31,278 bases of DNA from a virus. The notes under the pieces are model-generated. The model was not told where the DNA came from, searched no databases, and worked only from the letters and a program-made list of their open reading frames with translations. Shown one piece after another: positions 1 through 15,349 of this stretch; within the stretch, counting starts at the first letter, position 1; every line of letters starts with the position of its first letter. A program made the translations under genes and the position numbers. The DNA lies in the IMG/VR virus record IMGVR_UViG_3300017762_000037, positions 1-31,278 of that record; one strand, written 5' to 3'.

Positions 1-1133
1 GATCGTCTTGATTGCCATAACATATGCGGTTGGTGATCTAATGATTCATCTTCTAAAGGTATTTCTAGATCATGCGCTCTATCCACTATAGATTCCCATG
101 CTTTATTCTCTAAGAGATGATGGTAAAGATCGTCGGGGTGCTGTCTTGATCCAATGACGACCATTCCTGTATGTTCTTCTTTACGCGATTGTAATGTTGT
201 AGTCCACCAGTTCCTGGTGTTTTCTCTAGCACTTGGTTGCACAGTTGTGCCATGATCTTCGATGTCGTCTGCAATAATAAGGTCTGCGTCTCGGGAAAGG
301 ATTTTACCTCCCTTTCCAATTGCGACAAGAGTTGGTGACTTAATACCAGAGACTGTTCTAGTTGCAACAGTAAATTGACTGGACGACCAACTTTTTCCAC
401 CTCTATTAGAAGGTCTAAATCCGTCGTAGTCTCCGTAATCTTGTATGAGTCCTTCATTATTCTCCAAATGGTCTAGTACCGCACCTACAGAGTTACGTGC
501 AATGTCTTCGTTACCACCGCACCACATAACACGTATGTTTGGATTTTTACATATCATGTAAATACAAAAGTGAGTTAAGAGATCTGTCTTACCATGTCTA
601 GGTGGAGACAAAATCATAAGTCGCTTACCATACTTTATACTATCTAAGATAGCAGCTATCCACTTCTTTTGGAAGTCAGGTGTTTCATAATTTTCCCCAC
701 GCTCTGTTAGGAAATATTCATCTCTAAACTTTACAAAGGACTCTACGTCCGCCTGCAGCTCGAAGGGATCCCCCCTCTTTTCGTGCAGCGCTTCTTTCTC
801 TACGTCCTCTAAGTAAGCAGCTACTGCCCTAGATACGGTTGATGGACTGCAGCTTAATATATTAGCGATCTCTTTTTTAGTCTTAGTACCACTCATTATG
901 TCGTGAAAAAAATTTTTCTGTTTCATTATGGCATAATAATCCCCACGTCGTTTCTGTACATTTTCATCTACCTGCTTGGGGTTCTGTATCTCTGCTGTGG
1001 GTTTACTAGCTCTCCACGCTCTCTGTCGTGTTCTTTTAGAACACCTATCACTACAATACTTCTTACGACCTTCTGGTAAAGGGATCAGACAGTTGTCTGC
1101 TGTGCAGATGGTGATTTTTTCTTTATTTGACAT
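1..1133 (-). CDS. terL: Terminase large subunit, 5' part (C-terminus cut by window edge)
   Basis: DNA-packaging motor ATPase. I translated 377 open residues from ATG at 1133; the frame runs off the left edge, so the nuclease domain is missing. The Walker A motif is SPPRHGKTD at residues 176-184, the Walker B is LIIADDIED around 285-293, and the coupling segment VIGSRQHPDDL is at about 326-336; all are typical of TerL. Unusually, about 130 residues precede the ATPase: a zinc-knuckle-like Cys set (C10, C15, C27, C31) and a probable helix-turn-helix at about 82-110 (KTKKEIANILSCSPSTVSRA). Such DNA-binding parts normally belong to the small terminase subunit, and no separate small subunit is seen here. 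The ribosome site is weak (AGAG just upstream). It follows an 820-base noncoding region. The TerL call is firm; the role of the N-terminus is inferred. Confidence 0.93.
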   Translation of the reverse strand, partial: MSNKEKITICTADNCLIPLPEGRKKYCSDRCSKRTRQRAWRASKPTAEIQNPKQVDENVQKRRGDYYAIMKQKNFFHDIMSGTKTKKEIANILSCSPSTVSRAVAAYLEDVEKEALHEKRGDPFELQADVESFVKFRDEYFLTERGENYETPDFQKKWIAAILDSIKYGKRLMILSPPRHGKTDLLTHFCIYMICKNPNIRVMWCGGNEDIARNSVGAVLDHLENNEGLIQDYGDYDGFRPSNRGGKSWSSSQFTVATRTVSGIKSPTLVAIGKGGKILSRDADLIIADDIEDHGTTVQPSARENTRNWWTTTLQSRKEEHTGMVVIGSRQHPDDLYHHLLENKAWESIVDRAHDLEIPLEDESLDHQPHMLWQSRR

Positions 1134-1375
1134 ATCTCTATGGTATAGTGTAGCATACGTGGGATAAGTAATGTGGTGTTCCTGCCTATACAAACACCAT
1201 ATGATAATACAAAAGAGTTGTGGTTGGACTAGCAGGACCGCCTTAGTCATCCGTTGAGGGATCTTCCTCACATTTTATTTATTAGAGAGAGACAATATTT
1301 TTACGTTACTGCACTTAATAAACTGCGTTGGGTTGGGAGTGACACAGGGATTGCTACGACTGCCGCGCGCTCGAC

Positions 1376-1406
1376 TGTTATATTACAGGATCTGCGTAAT
1401 ATAACA
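1376..1406. repeat. 11-bp perfect inverted repeat
   Basis: TGTTATATTAC at 1376-1386 and its exact reverse complement GTAATATAACA at 1396-1406, with a 9-base spacer. There is no T-run on either side, so it is not a simple terminator. Its position 65 bases upstream of the tmRNA-like RNA start would suit a dimeric protein-binding site or an origin element; this role is inferred. Confidence 0.8.
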
Positions 1407-1414
1407 TACTATTG

Positions 1415-1459
1415 GTAGTTATACCACATATAGTGGTTATAGACTACACTATATATAGT
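1415..1459. repeat. Imperfect inverted repeat and ACTATATATAGT palindrome
   Basis: GTAGTTATACCAC (from about 1416) faces GTGGTTATAGACTAC (to 1445) as an imperfect inverted repeat with two extra bases on one side. It is followed directly by the perfect 12-bp palindrome ACTATATATAGT at 1448-1459, which overlaps the start of the -10 box of the tmRNA-like RNA promoter. It may be an operator for that promoter. Confidence 0.6.
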
Positions 1460-1464
1460 ATACT
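1436..1464 (+). promoter_or_regulatory. Probable promoter of the tmRNA-like RNA
   Basis: The -10 hexamer TATACT at 1459-1464 lies 7 bases before G1472, the first base of the folded RNA, which is the spacing expected for a start at G1471 or G1472. The -35 region at about 1436-1441 is poor. The -10 overlaps the last base of an inverted-repeat palindrome, so repression is possible. It is plus-strand, opposite to the neighbouring genes. Confidence 0.5.
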
Positions 1465-1471
1465 GTAGACG

Positions 1472-1551
1472 GGGGGTGTACTGGTTTCGTGTTAGATCTT
1501 ATCCCATATAAACATCTAATAACAGTGGGTTCGACTCCCACCACCTCCACA
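1472..1551 (+). ncRNA. tmRNA-like tRNA domain lacking the mRNA-like part
   Basis: The RNA folds as the tRNA-like end of tmRNA and not as an ordinary tRNA. The acceptor stem is GGGGGTG (1472-1478) with CACCTCC (1542-1548): seven pairs, including G3.U70, the alanyl-tRNA synthetase identity pair, followed by discriminator A1549 and CA. The T arm is GTGGG, loop TTCGACT, CCCAC (1525-1541), directly joined to the acceptor as in tmRNA. After the 5' acceptor comes TACTGGTTTCG, matching the tmRNA D-loop, with no D stem. In place of the roughly 250-base pseudoknot and tag region there is one hairpin: TGTTAGAT/ATCTAATA (1490-1497 with 1514-1521, one G-U) with a 16-base loop. There is no anticodon stem with a 7-base loop. 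CCA is not fully encoded (CA only). Function unknown: decoy of SmpB/AlaRS, relic, or integration-site remnant. Confidence 0.7.
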
Positions 1552-1649
1552 AATTGCCAGGTTTAAATTGACTAATTCATACATATTTTATGCGCCCCGA
1601 GATTAAGGTATGGGGGTTAATACTTGCTTTGTATGCGTGTGTGTGGGTA

Positions 1650-2347: not shown

Positions 2348-2509
2348 TTAAATTTCTCCCCTCTCTTTTGCTGCTGCAAATTCATCTCCAATATAATTAA
2401 CGTACTCTTCCAGGTCTGCTTGTGTCTCTCTTAGTTCCTGGCGTAAACTCCAGGCATAGACAACAAGGAACGAATGGCTAGCTATGAGTAACAATATAAA
2501 CAGATTCAT
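2348..2509 (-). CDS. Single-membrane-span small protein (53 aa)
   Basis: Start and stop overlap their neighbours: its ATG shares an A with the TAA of the ArdA-like gene (TAATG) and its own TAA touches the next ATG. Residues 2-20 (NLFILLLIASHSFLVVYAW) form one hydrophobic span; the rest is a charged helix (LRQELRETQADLEEYV) ending GEI. This looks like a small inner-membrane phage protein. Spanin or exclusion roles are possible but unsupported. Confidence 0.75.
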   Translation of the reverse strand: MNLFILLLIASHSFLVVYAWSLRQELRETQADLEEYVNYIGDEFAAAKERGEI

Positions 2510-3084
2510 TAGAAGCTACCCCATAGATACGTAACCCCGTTAATCTCTGCGCGCTCTAATCCATTAAGCATATACTCGCGGACTTCTCGCCAATTTATAA
2601 ACGGCGTAAGATATTCTGGAACATCATAATGTTCTACAAATCTATCTTCTAGCGCGTTCTCTTCCTCTTCCCGTGATGTAAAGACTGTTACACTGTCTGC
2701 AAAATCTTTAAACGTTTCCGTTGGTTCGTGATTAACGTCCAACTCATCACCCATAAGAAACACTTCTTTAAATGCTCTTACATAATCAAAATTAGGAACC
2801 AATTGAAGCAGCTGCACAAGTCCGTAAATCTCTTCGGCTAGCATGTACTCGCCGCCGCCAAAATCATTGTCCTGTATGTGTACTTCATCCCCGCCGCATG
2901 CGTACGGAGTCTTAGCTTTTTTGTGTATCTCTTCAATATCCAATGCTTTTTGGATTTGTTTAAGCGTTGTCTCTTTGGTAATTTGGAACCAATAAAAAGT
3001 AAGGCGCCCTTGATTGTAGCAAGCTAAACAGCCAGGACATATTTCTATATAGTTATTGTTTTCGATAGTTTCGATAGTATTCAT
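2509..3084 (-). CDS. ardA: ArdA-like antirestriction protein (191 aa)
   Basis: ArdA proteins mimic bent DNA and block type I restriction enzymes in the host cytoplasm. The N-terminus IEICPGCLACYNQGRLTFYW (about 13-32) matches the family's opening strand (consensus NLAAYNxGxLxGxW). The C-terminal region LEDRFVEHYDVPEYL, followed by FINWREVREYML, matches the ArdA third domain. The protein is strongly acidic, as a DNA mimic must be, and its 191 residues are near the family length of about 165-180. A good ribosome site (GGAAGGAG) precedes the ATG at 3084. It is the first gene after its own promoter, which suits early expression before host restriction acts. The odd feature is the cysteines C16, C19 and C22, not typical of ArdA. 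Confidence 0.8.
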   Translation of the reverse strand: MNTIETIENNNYIEICPGCLACYNQGRLTFYWFQITKETTLKQIQKALDIEEIHKKAKTPYACGGDEVHIQDNDFGGGEYMLAEEIYGLVQLLQLVPNFDYVRAFKEVFLMGDELDVNHEPTETFKDFADSVTVFTSREEEENALEDRFVEHYDVPEYLTPFINWREVREYMLNGLERAEINGVTYLWGSF

Positions 3085-6364: not shown

Positions 6365-6496
6365 TTAGTAATGTTTCTTTCTTCTATTCCAACCGTCACG
6401 AAATCCTTCCTCATAAGCATTTTGTGTTATAGGATGTGTGTATTTTTTTTCAGGCGTTTTGCGTCGTTTAATTATTTTTAGTATTATGTCTTCCAT
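6365..6496 (-). CDS. Tiny basic protein with AYEEGFRDGW motif (43 aa)
   Basis: ATG at 6496 overlaps the stop of the SET gene (TAATG), with AAAGGAGGAA upstream. The N-terminal half is Lys-rich (ILKIIKRRKTPEKKY). The C-terminus NAYEEGFRDGWNRRKKHY carries a pattern I know from many small phage proteins of unknown role (AYxEGFxDGW). Function unknown. Confidence 0.7.
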   Translation of the reverse strand: MEDIILKIIKRRKTPEKKYTHPITQNAYEEGFRDGWNRRKKHY

Positions 6497-6798
6497 TATT
6501 CTTCCTCCTTTGGTTTATACCATTCGTAACGTAAAGTTAATTCTGTACCTGCTGCAATGTGATCTCTTGTAAAAACATAGTGGTATCTTTGTACTTCAAC
6601 TCTTTGTAAGTTAGGATCTTCTGCATGATTAATAAAACCACCGAGTGGTGTACGATGTAGCTTCTTAGTTATGAAATCTTCTACGTGTGTTATGCCTAAA
6701 CACTCACTCATAGGTATATCTTTTAATGTAAATAGACCTAGCCCATCTATCTTGCTAGGTTGTATTGTTAAATGTTTAGGAAGTGGACGGTATGTCAT
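6496..6798 (-). CDS. SET-domain protein, putative lysine methyltransferase (100 aa)
   Basis: SET domains transfer methyl groups from S-adenosylmethionine to protein lysines. The core motifs are present in order: SKIDGLGLF at 15-23 (N-terminal strand, usual SxIHGxGxF), GGFINHAEDPN at 53-63 (usual RFINHSCxPN, the SAM-binding knot) and GTELTLRYEWY at 84-94 (usual GEELTYDY, with the catalytic Tyr). At about 100 residues it is a minimal SET core without pre/post-SET zinc sites. I use ATG 6798 (MTYRPLPKHL). An ATG at 6828 gives ten extra residues but lies deeper in the preceding gene; neither has a strong ribosome site. The C-terminal KEEE encodes the next gene's GGAGGAA. Substrate unknown. Confidence 0.8.
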   Translation of the reverse strand: MTYRPLPKHLTIQPSKIDGLGLFTLKDIPMSECLGITHVEDFITKKLHRTPLGGFINHAEDPNLQRVEVQRYHYVFTRDHIAAGTELTLRYEWYKPKEEE

Positions 6799-6919
6799 TG
6801 CCCAAATCAAAGTCTTCATCAGGATCATTATGTTTATTGATCATAACTCCTAACACCATCTCTTCAAATTCTTTTGAACCTATTTTATAACCTGGTCCAT
6901 CAAACATATTCTTAGCCAC
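6776..6919 (-). CDS. Tiny acidic protein (47 aa, GTG start)
   Basis: GTG at 6919 with GGAAGAGGTGG upstream, overlapping the end of the 37-residue gene by eight bases (GTGGCTAA); an ATG four codons later is the alternative. The product contains NMFDGPGYKIGSKEFEEMVL and a very acidic C-terminal half (DPDEDFDLGNDIP). No family recognised. Its end overlaps the SET gene start by 23 bases. Confidence 0.6.
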   Translation of the reverse strand: MAKNMFDGPGYKIGSKEFEEMVLGVMINKHNDPDEDFDLGNDIPSTS

Positions 6920-14105: not shown

Positions 14106-14837
14106 TCATACAATATTTAATTTAATTTCTTCTAACACTTTTTTCTGCGCATTTGAAGCATGAAACTTTGCATATCTTTTTGCTAAAGGCACACCACTCC
14201 ACCAAGCAGAACTTTCAGCACACGAACTTGCTATGTTGTATAGTTTTTCAGTTAAATGAAATCTATGTAATTTTATTTTTTCTTGTGTATTAAAGTTTAC
14301 ATAAGCTAAAGGTTCATCTTCTTCTATCTTCCATTCGTTTATACCTTCCCATAAATTTATTTCAAATCGTAAAGGTCTAAACCAACTGCCTATATCATAT
14401 CTACCTGGAACAACAGCACCATATTTAGTATGTTTTGCTTGATGAAAATAAGGTGCAGTCAAGGTTATATCTACAGATTTATCTGCAAAAAATATATGTG
14501 GCATATGATAATCAAACATCTTTTGTCCTGTTAATGTATCGTCTCTTAATATTTCTGAATGCATATGGTTTTTAGAAGTAGGTATTACTGGTGATTGTCT
14601 ATTAGGTAAATAAAAATCAGTAAATTTACTATGTGTTTGTATTGGATTTTTTATAACTAATGTATGCGTACCTAAATCTTGAAAAGCTGTACATTCATCA
14701 AATCCTGGCATATCTTTTTGTCTATTTTTATTTTTGTTTTTAATTTTGCTTTTAAACAAAGACTGTGGTTCTTCATACATCCAAGAAAAATCATCTTCAG
14801 TTGGATGATTGAATGCAGAATAATAAATATTGATCAT
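14106..14837 (-). CDS. Conserved aquatic-phage protein of unknown function, oxygenase partner (243 aa)
   Basis: ATG 14837 overlaps the end of the 2OG oxygenase gene (ATGA). It starts INIYYSAFNHP and contains FDECTAFQDLGTHTLVI. The central segment VVPGRYDIGSWFRPLRFEIN is followed by LWEGINEWKIEEDEPLAYVNF. I recall this pattern (IYYS..., D-I-G-W-F-R-P, GDPLxYVxF) from proteins next to 2OG-Fe(II) oxygenases in marine phages, but its activity is not known. No signal peptide or membrane span. Codon use is more AT-rich than the tail genes. It probably acts with the oxygenase on a shared substrate, perhaps a virion protein or sugar. Confidence 0.65.
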   Translation of the reverse strand: MINIYYSAFNHPTEDDFSWMYEEPQSLFKSKIKNKNKNRQKDMPGFDECTAFQDLGTHTLVIKNPIQTHSKFTDFYLPNRQSPVIPTSKNHMHSEILRDDTLTGQKMFDYHMPHIFFADKSVDITLTAPYFHQAKHTKYGAVVPGRYDIGSWFRPLRFEINLWEGINEWKIEEDEPLAYVNFNTQEKIKLHRFHLTEKLYNIASSCAESSAWWSGVPLAKRYAKFHASNAQKKVLEEIKLNIV

Positions 14838-15349
14838 GAAAAATCAAAGTTAACTAATACTCTTATAGGAGTATCTGATTGTGTAACTCCACTATGTAAA
14901 CTTTTACCATCAAAAACTAGCAGACTATTTTGTACACTATCAAAAAATTTATTAGGTTTATAAAATTTAGTACCACCATTACAAGTTGTTAAATTATAAA
15001 CTGCTGTTGTGTAACTATCTAATTCAGGATAATCTTCATGTTGTTCATGCGTTATATTAACACCACTATTTGTGTATAAATTAGCTTTTATTCTTAAAAG
15101 ATTAGTATGTTTTTTACCAACATAAGCACTAATTGTATTTAATAAAGGAATAAACTCTTGAAATTGTGGACTATTTATACCTGTGTTTACATCATATAAA
15201 CTGTGTGCAAACATAAAATCATCATCTTGTGTTGATAATTCTTTATGCAATGAAGTTGCGTAATGATACCAAGCAAAATAATTACCTGTTGTTATGTTTA
15301 ATAAAGAATTGTAATTGTCGTCAGATAAAATATTTGTATGTAAATGCAA
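14834..15349 (-). CDS. 2OG-Fe(II) oxygenase (171 aa, TTG start)
   Basis: Non-haem iron dioxygenase of the prolyl-4-hydroxylase type. The iron triad is visible as H104-E-D106 (EQHEDYPEL), H152 (KSLHSGV) and, for 2-oxoglutarate, R163 (TPIRVLVNF), with the usual 11-residue distance from His to Arg. NGGTKFY (124-130) is the standard strand before the second His. The start is TTG 15349 with AAAGGTGG five bases upstream. Such genes are frequent in marine phages and may hydroxylate a virion protein or a nucleotide; the substrate here is unknown. It lies between the tail genes and the lysis block. Confidence 0.85.
   Translation of the reverse strand: MHLHTNILSDDNYNSLLNITTGNYFAWYHYATSLHKELSTQDDDFMFAHSLYDVNTGINSPQFQEFIPLLNTISAYVGKKHTNLLRIKANLYTNSGVNITHEQHEDYPELDSYTTAVYNLTTCNGGTKFYKPNKFFDSVQNSLLVFDGKSLHSGVTQSDTPIRVLVNFDFS

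Follow-up and report, generated by a model that had tools for sequence, protein, structure and literature searches.

The window analysed here is the whole 31,278-base stretch of an IMG/VR virus record. One end of it holds the large terminase subunit gene terL, and upstream of terL lie two structured RNAs, which we call RNA1 and RNA2 (Table 1). As the preliminary description of this locus had stated, RNA2 runs on the plus strand, opposite to its neighbouring genes. The start codon chosen for terL corresponds to residue 47 of the listed open reading frame (ORF), and distant homologues match that frame only from residues 43-68. The capsid and terminase proteins match best, at ~31% identity, to those of phages of Streptomyces, Mycobacterium and other actinobacteria, which makes a marine actinobacterium our guess for the host. 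No DNA match to named phages was obtained for the window region, and one structural protein gave no match. Three further gene products are listed at the foot of the table.

Table 1. Features of the window, with the basis on which each was assigned
Feature	Position	Strand	Basis
terL, large terminase subunit gene (partial)	3..1133	-	PHROG 38, E 1.4e-45; start codon probably 1133
TGGTATAGT, putative extended -10 box of RNA1	1141..1149	+	motif TGnTATAGTG at equivalent place in relatives
RNA1, conserved structured non-coding RNA (ends approximate)	1156..1410	+	alignment, covarying hairpins
RNA1 5' segment UGGGAUAAG, complementary to RNA2 loop	1160..1168	+	family comparison
Palindromic operator-like repeats CCACATATAGTGG, ACTATATATAGT (type ACATATAGT) 5' of RNA2	1424..1464	+	sequence
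TATACT, putative -10 box of RNA2	1459..1464	+	7 bases 5' of 1472; similar boxes in relatives
RNA2, compact tmRNA-like RNA (tRNA-like domain only), to A73	1472..1549	+	RF00023 and model R1 matches, family covariation
Acceptor 5' strand GGGGGUG, G3 at 1474	1472..1478	+	7 bp with 1542-1548
D-loop-like stretch UACUGGUUUCG	1479..1489	+	sequence, family comparison; tmRNA type in window clade only
P2-like hairpin, stem 1490-1497/1514-1521 (8 bp)	1490..1521	+	minimum-energy fold; family comparison
Hairpin-loop segment CUUAUCCCA, complementary to RNA1 1160-1168	1498..1506	+	partly within weak inner stem of predicted fold
T arm, loop UUCGACU	1525..1541	+	sequence, family comparison
Acceptor 3' strand CACCUCC (U70 = 1546) and discriminator A73 (1549)	1542..1549	+	sequence, family comparison
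Stretch just 3' of RNA2 (ACAAATTGCCA...TTGAC...; ATTAAGGTATGGGGGTT); may be another signal or RNA	1553..1625		family-conserved
ArdA-like antirestriction protein, beyond two small ORFs next to RNA2	2509..3084	-	26.3 bits; Pfam cut-off 27
Small phage protein with partial SET domain	6496..6828	-	33.9 bits
Endonuclease V-like protein	14834..15349	-	PHROG 274

Identity of the compact RNA

The preliminary description had proposed a compact tmRNA-like RNA with no mRNA-like domain, and the parts that it named are present in RNA2: a 7-bp acceptor with the G3.U70 pair and A73, a T arm joined to the acceptor, and a single 8-bp hairpin in place of the tag and the pseudoknots. This 32-nt hairpin alone joins the two halves of the tRNA-like domain (TLD), and both a tag reading frame and pseudoknots are absent from RNA2. 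CCA is not encoded at the 3' end, where CAA comes after A73. The minimum-energy fold reproduces this shape and places a weak 4-bp stem inside the 16-nt hairpin loop. The folding energy by itself is weak evidence for RNA2, because its z is only -1.9 and 7 of 200 shuffles fold equally well.

The matches to structural models are beyond chance. RNA2 scores over the curated cut-off of the Rfam tmRNA model RF00023 (52.6 bits, cut-off 47, E 3.6e-18) in a match which spans the first to the last model position, with the message part and the pseudoknots skipped, and the Rfam tRNA model RF00005 gives 30.8 bits. A plain tRNA or tRNA-Ala was rejected: there is no anticodon arm with a 7-nt loop, no D stem and a loop of 16 nt, and ARAGORN reports nothing at RNA2. 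A second covariance model, R1, built from 42 other viral compact RNAs with the window's phage family excluded, gives 55.3 bits (E 2.8e-11), the pattern that gathered those 42 RNAs having itself been modelled on the window's acceptor and T arm. RNA2 begins with the same 18 bases as full-length viral tmRNAs; this exact 18-mer occurs in 52 loci (52 of 53 matching stretches were read), comprising 24 full-length forms, 9 compact ones, all from the window's family, and 19 unresolved. RNA2 shares with bacterial tmRNA (RF00023) the G3.U70 acceptor, A73, the position of P2, the T arm and, in the window clade, the GGUUUCG D-loop, but differs from it in the loss of tag frame and pseudoknots. Its length is 78 nt, compared with 355-479 nt for the 24 full-length viral tmRNAs and 269-281 nt for those of Streptomyces phages. 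It is a phage RNA that has a TLD with G3.U70 and A73 and hardly exceeds this domain, as in the TLD-only type of phage DS6A. It is thus well supported that RNA2 is a virus-encoded, message-less tmRNA cut down to its tRNA-like domain.

The -10 box reported in the preliminary description is there as the sequence TATACT, and relatives carry TATACT, TACACT or TACAAT at the equivalent position; a sigma-70 scan, however, gives no promoter directly 5' of RNA2 and leaves this box, which has no -35 partner, unlisted. The palindromic repeats 5' of RNA2 resemble the operators to which a regulator might bind.

RNA2 and RNA1 in the marine phage family

Marine relatives of the window phage carry diverged copies of RNA2 upstream of terL. 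The best 80 of at least 600 loci from a terL search were used. Among L011-L047 the upstream stretch is available in 33 loci, and RNA2 is found in 32 of these (31 by the structural script and L038 by hand), with a broken copy in L047; seven of L011-L050 end before the RNA2 position. In the more distant L051-L090, with terL at most 59% identical, the pattern finds RNA2 in 0 of 40 loci and R1 finds it in 0 of the 20 searched. R1 scores the marine family RNAs at 29-55 bits and finds one copy each in 13 of 17 records tried, the remaining four being more distant terL relatives, and RF00023 matches 9 of 20 related records at 26.5-45.3 bits, none over its cut-off.

Fifteen distinct RNAs, the window's included, represent this family. 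G3.U70 and A73 are kept in all 15, as read by a script which assumed those letters, yet which together with L038 accounts for 32 of the 33 loci. Compensatory changes in the stems, to which the preliminary description had pointed as a check, are found in these related phages. All 12 acceptor and T-stem pairs, including all seven positions of the acceptor, form in 15/15 RNAs (100% of cells paired vs 92.9% in shuffles), and four of the 12 show double changes, for instance pair 7, which passes from G-C to A-U in the L043 clade. The P2 hairpin stem differs by clade (UGUUAGAU/AUCUAAUA, AGUUAG/CUAACU, AGUAAG/CUUACU, UAGUUAGUU/AACUAACUA, UAGUUGGUU/AACCAACUA) and is kept despite the change of sequence, with one mismatch in 6 of the 15. 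The comparison supports the view that RNA2 is a selected RNA, which keeps the identity elements of alanyl-tRNA synthetase (AlaRS) while other pairs change. The tmRNA-type D-loop GGTTTCG noted in the preliminary description is present in the window's RNA2 but confined to its sub-clade, and relatives keep just TGG or TAG there. The letters of the D and T loops change together in 15/15 RNAs (TGG with a T loop of UUCGA, TAG with UGCAA), through few evolutionary events, and this co-change fits a contact between the two loops. An unusual marine variant of RNA2 (L043:3467-3573, minus strand) reaches 107 nt through a long insert in the hairpin loop.

RNA1 lies between terL and RNA2 throughout the family. 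The TGnTATAGTG box precedes it in 21 of 21 loci, and then in 81 of 81; the sigma-70 scan instead pairs TTGACA at 1127 with TAGCAT at 1151-1156 as the promoter before RNA1. RNA1 could end earlier, since it contains a terminator-like site at 1255-1270. Double changes occur in its hairpins (16 of 66 predicted pairs, for example in alignment columns 32-41/54-63). Rfam gives no match to RNA1 (best E 4.4), and no ORF of conserved length was found in it. A tag ORF ending at TAATAA, which stands in columns 190-195 in 19/19 sequences, was not accepted because the open frame before it varies from 1 to 29 codons.

The segment of RNA1 which is complementary to the RNA2 hairpin loop lies 9-28 bases past the TGnTATAGTG box. 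The complementarity extends over 7-11 nt in 21/21 of the first loci and in 27/27 distinct combinations, a set which was fetched partly via the RNA1 motif. At least 9 nt are reached in 23 of the 27 real combinations vs 26 of 5,400 shuffled-loop trials, and 44 of 436 cross-clade combinations of RNA1 and loop also reach 9-10 nt. Independent changes are few, because the clades are few and many of the 27 combinations are near-identical. For single sequences, a complement of 9-10 nt within 600 nt upstream is not rare, and therefore only the family-wide covariation counts; the window by itself is weak, as 25 of 500 shuffled loops pair equally well. In an alignment of RNA1 with RNA2 which excludes the L043/L044 clade, and in which the window clade counts as unpaired or G-U in several pairs, three of nine pairs are changed on both sides, with G-U between in L032 and L038. 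Cells are paired at 86% vs 78.6% when shuffled, with the window clade misregistered by one column, and counts of pairs and of pair types are not above shuffles. The L043 clade has a different complementary pair, CTTATAAAA with TTTTATAAG. By duplex energy, RNA1 pairs best with the loop of its own clade in four of five clades; the window-clade RNA1 gives -14.3 with its own loop and -16.8 with that of another clade, with which two other clades pair nearly as well.

A total of 88 RNA1 copies were counted over the scanned loci, with overlapping loci representing some contigs: 81 with RNA2, five cut off at a contig end, and two, in one contig, with a broken RNA2. RNA1 and intact RNA2 co-occur in 81 of the 83 untruncated loci. 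In that one contig (L047 and L392) the 3' strands of the RNA2 T arm and acceptor are deleted, and RNA1 and the loop segment stay. Because the complementarity is maintained, RNA1 probably matters for RNA2, be it as a regulator, a scaffold or a second half; the complementarity could also be a contact inside one transcript.

A class of message-less RNAs in viruses

Compact RNAs of this kind extend well beyond the marine family. A pattern that asks for an acceptor and a T arm at short spacing gave at least 120 stretches in viral contigs, of which 80 were read; all 80 give a compact match, and ARAGORN calls four of them tRNA. Structure filters on acceptor, T arm, P2 and length removed 27 of 85 matches. 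Removal of three loci called tRNA by ARAGORN (a fourth had already failed) and of near-duplicates left 43 RNAs, and exclusion of L205, a member of the window's family, left the 42 on which R1 was built. A strict pattern, which adds GGTTTCGAC, gave at least 120 viral stretches vs two in 84,980 bacterial and archaeal species, showing that the strict compact form is nearly restricted to viruses. The two cellular matches (L289:20-97 and L290:150-228) are both in contigs of metagenome-assembled genomes (MAGs), one near a contig edge and the other in a 20.8-kb contig labelled archaeon, and these may be viral contigs.

Together, the viral and cellular strict matches comprise 81 distinct RNAs in 122 loci, mostly of 78-79 nt. 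An alignment was made of 63 of the 70 non-redundant strict RNAs (61 viral and two MAG), the seven of unusual length being excluded. Pairing in the P2 and T stems reaches 97.7% of its cells vs 61.7% when shuffled, and the covariation score is 0.891 vs 0.161, a signal which is destroyed when partners are slid by one column; measures that merely count pairs or pair types are not above shuffles for these 63 RNAs. The pattern itself prescribes G1-G3, U6 and G7 in the acceptor and several of the letters paired to them, as well as A73 and the D-loop, and these letters provide no evidence in the class. Before the T arm the class keeps a tmRNA-like GGA(C), which, unlike GGTTTCGAC there, is not fixed by the pattern.

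The surroundings of class members vary. There is no recurring neighbour gene (maximum 7 of 69 loci), a tRNA lies within 1 kb in only 15 of 69 strict loci, and a rule based on tRNA clusters or common neighbours was therefore dropped. Mechanically called ORFs of at least 80 aa overlap 30 of 69 members. When 14 viral contigs were compared with RF00023, the compact form was the best match, and no full-length tmRNA was seen in them. No RNA1-like partner was recognised within 600 nt upstream for the rest of the class. No relative of the L323-type RNA was found in the phage collection, and the structural finder gave no compact RNA at the Salinibacter phage match L288.

The class is also present in isolated phages. 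BLAST with the Genie2 copy gave 83 records (82 Streptomyces and one uncultured, with GenBank and RefSeq copies of the same phage both counted), the match covering 80% or more of the query in 82, and no annotation lies under the 60 matches listed. The Katzastrophic copy gave 31 records, of which 17, all Microbacterium, cover at least 80% of the query, and none of its 26 Microbacterium matches is annotated. G3.U70 and A73 are present in 5/5 Streptomyces and 5/5 Microbacterium copies read out; these 10 copies came from BLAST searches with the 3' end, with U70 and A73 within the query match and G3 outside it. Their acceptor varies (GGGUCUG, GGGUUUG, GGGCCUG). Another class query, L217, matches in full a further three Streptomyces phages. 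The L217-type copy of GiJojo lies under an annotated hypothetical protein, and the LuckySocke and pSt2308 copies share the shape of the class. The Streptomyces and Microbacterium copies sit among or adjoin annotated tRNA genes. All five Streptomyces phages with the compact RNA whose records were compared (MK359332, MZ958750, MK494112, MF155946 and MT684590) also carry a full tmRNA of 269-281 nt; RF00023 lists the full form in 5/5 and the compact form in 4/5, the fifth compact copy having been read by the structural finder. Microbacterium phage Camille (L152) has a tRNA-like end without G3.U70 and was excluded. Directly 3' of this unannotated end, at L152:1585-1643, lies a Pistol ribozyme (RF02679, 36.2 bits).

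Function of RNA2 and alternative readings

A message-less phage tmRNA is a kind already known, and it is its breadth that is new. The accessible text of PMC4131195 and PMC11915505 names one TLD-only phage example, mycobacteriophage DS6A with its 'TLD only' tmRNA (tmID 11587), and PMC11915505 counts nine unique 'standard, no CDS' sequences in all in the 2025 tmRNA database. According to the accessible text of both, citing Mao et al. 2009, the DS6A-type TLD-only tmRNA inhibits tmRNA in E. coli; the inhibition is reported for DS6A's own form (PMC11915505) or for a similar molecule (PMC4131195), 'perhaps acting by titrating SmpB' (PMC4131195). In a comparison by description, RNA2 resembles the DS6A form as a phage-encoded RNA of hardly more than the tRNA-like domain of tmRNA, and differs in that those accounts of DS6A describe no partner RNA. 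The organellar CDS-less tmRNAs (in mitochondria, and as ~65-bp plastid genes; PMC11915505) are likewise tag-less, but they are organellar and that account reports no partner RNA for them. Among the matches listed in open-licence papers, the class is undescribed beyond DS6A and these organellar forms, and no description of a covarying partner RNA was found.

We propose a mechanism in which RNA2 would be transcribed independently, receive CCA and then alanine from the host AlaRS, and engage EF-Tu, SmpB and stalled ribosomes without a tag template. It would thereby compete with or divert host trans-translation during infection, as reported for the DS6A type. In the marine family, RNA1, from the adjacent upstream stretch, would dock its 5' end on the RNA2 P2 loop and probably control or position RNA2, as the covariation suggests. 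An SmpB gene was found in none of the 25 phage records searched, some of which may be fragments, and a host partner would therefore be needed. Given the inhibition of tmRNA reported for a DS6A-type TLD-only tmRNA, we hold it most likely, at about one half, that RNA2 competes with host trans-translation or diverts it. The same even balance applies to the explanation as a whole, a TLD-only viral tmRNA diverting host ribosome rescue, with RNA1 docking in the marine family.

This agrees in part with the decoy function suggested in the preliminary description, in that the AlaRS elements are kept, the message is missing and DS6A offers a precedent. The D-loop of tmRNA is part of the SmpB site. Most of the window's relatives are without a tmRNA-type D-loop, which speaks against a plain SmpB decoy, and a full tmRNA beside the compact RNA in five of five Streptomyces phages is odd for a blocker of trans-translation. 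Against the wider explanation stand the missing sigma-70 promoter before RNA2, the one relative that lost the 3' half of RNA2 and kept RNA1, the lack of a recurring neighbour gene (at most 7/69) and the ORFs across 30/69 class members.

Three other readings seem unlikely to us and nevertheless deserve to be weighed. RNA2 might be the alanine-bearing half of a bipartite machine, a split and tag-less tmRNA whose other half is RNA1, the two being paired through loop and 5' end and acting on ribosomes or AlaRS in a non-inhibitory way. We regard this as a tentative proposal. It draws on the complementarity in 27/27 combinations with double changes in three of nine pairs and G-U in L032 and L038, on the covarying RNA1 hairpins, on the promoter-like boxes that are alike before RNA1 and RNA2, and on the presence of intact RNA2 in 81 of 83 untruncated RNA1 loci. 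However, RNA1 has no tag ORF, with open frames of varying length before the conserved stop columns, no RNA1-like partner was recognised in the rest of the class, few clades mean few independent changes, 44/436 cross-clade combinations reach 9-10 nt, and the window-clade RNA1 prefers the loop of another clade. The pieces of a two-piece tmRNA are joined by base pairing. The two-piece permuted tmRNA of phage Melnitz, as far as it is described in the accessible text of PMC9004378, is similar in giving two RNA pieces from one locus, but RNA2 carries both acceptor strands, its gene order is unpermuted and RNA1 is without a recognisable tag frame. A combined version, in which alanine-charged RNA2 docked through its P2 loop on the RNA1 5' end would take over stalled ribosomes, and in which message-less tmRNAs would commonly serve viruses to counter or replace host rescue, is in our estimation equally doubtful.

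As the third reading, alanine-charged RNA2 may be a stand-in cofactor or regulator, sensed by or titrating AlaRS, EF-Tu or a tRNA-cutting defence enzyme, and have no part in rescue. The AlaRS determinants kept throughout, the relatives which lack the tmRNA D-loop while their D- and T-loop letters co-change, and the Streptomyces and Microbacterium copies in or beside phage tRNA genes would all be consistent with such a role, whereas the tmRNA-like GGA(C) that the class keeps before the T arm, and the tRNA found within 1 kb in only 15/69 strict loci, argue against it; we consider it improbable, though not negligible.

A packaging or replication signal beside terL, folding like a tRNA by coincidence, is very unlikely. 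RNA1 and RNA2 do lie directly upstream of terL in the family, but G3.U70 stays G.U in 15/15 RNAs, which matters only in RNA of the plus strand, and the Streptomyces and Microbacterium members of the class adjoin tRNA genes and unrelated genes. The ssrA gene is a site into which phages integrate, and RNA2 shares its first 18 bases with full-length viral tmRNAs, but the preliminary description's alternatives of a degenerate attachment site or a relic of a captured host ssrA are hardly credible, as the tyrosine integrase PF00589 is found in 0 of 15 related records (which may be fragments, serine integrases lying outside this profile search) and no integrase family among the scanned window ORFs, both halves of RNA2 and not a 3'-end block are conserved with compensatory changes, RNA2 is not a relic because of its covariation across the family, and the strict compact form hardly occurs in cellular genomes.

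The TLD-only viral tmRNA diverting host ribosome rescue, with RNA1 docking in the marine family, is thus the explanation which we prefer. The compact form is common in viruses, compared with the single phage, DS6A, named in the accessible text of two tmRNA surveys. An Rfam score alone would label these compact RNAs as ordinary tmRNA, as 13 of the 14 viral contigs compared are over the cut-off. Their unannotated presence in laboratory Streptomyces and Microbacterium phages makes a phage attack on trans-translation, or its re-use, directly testable.
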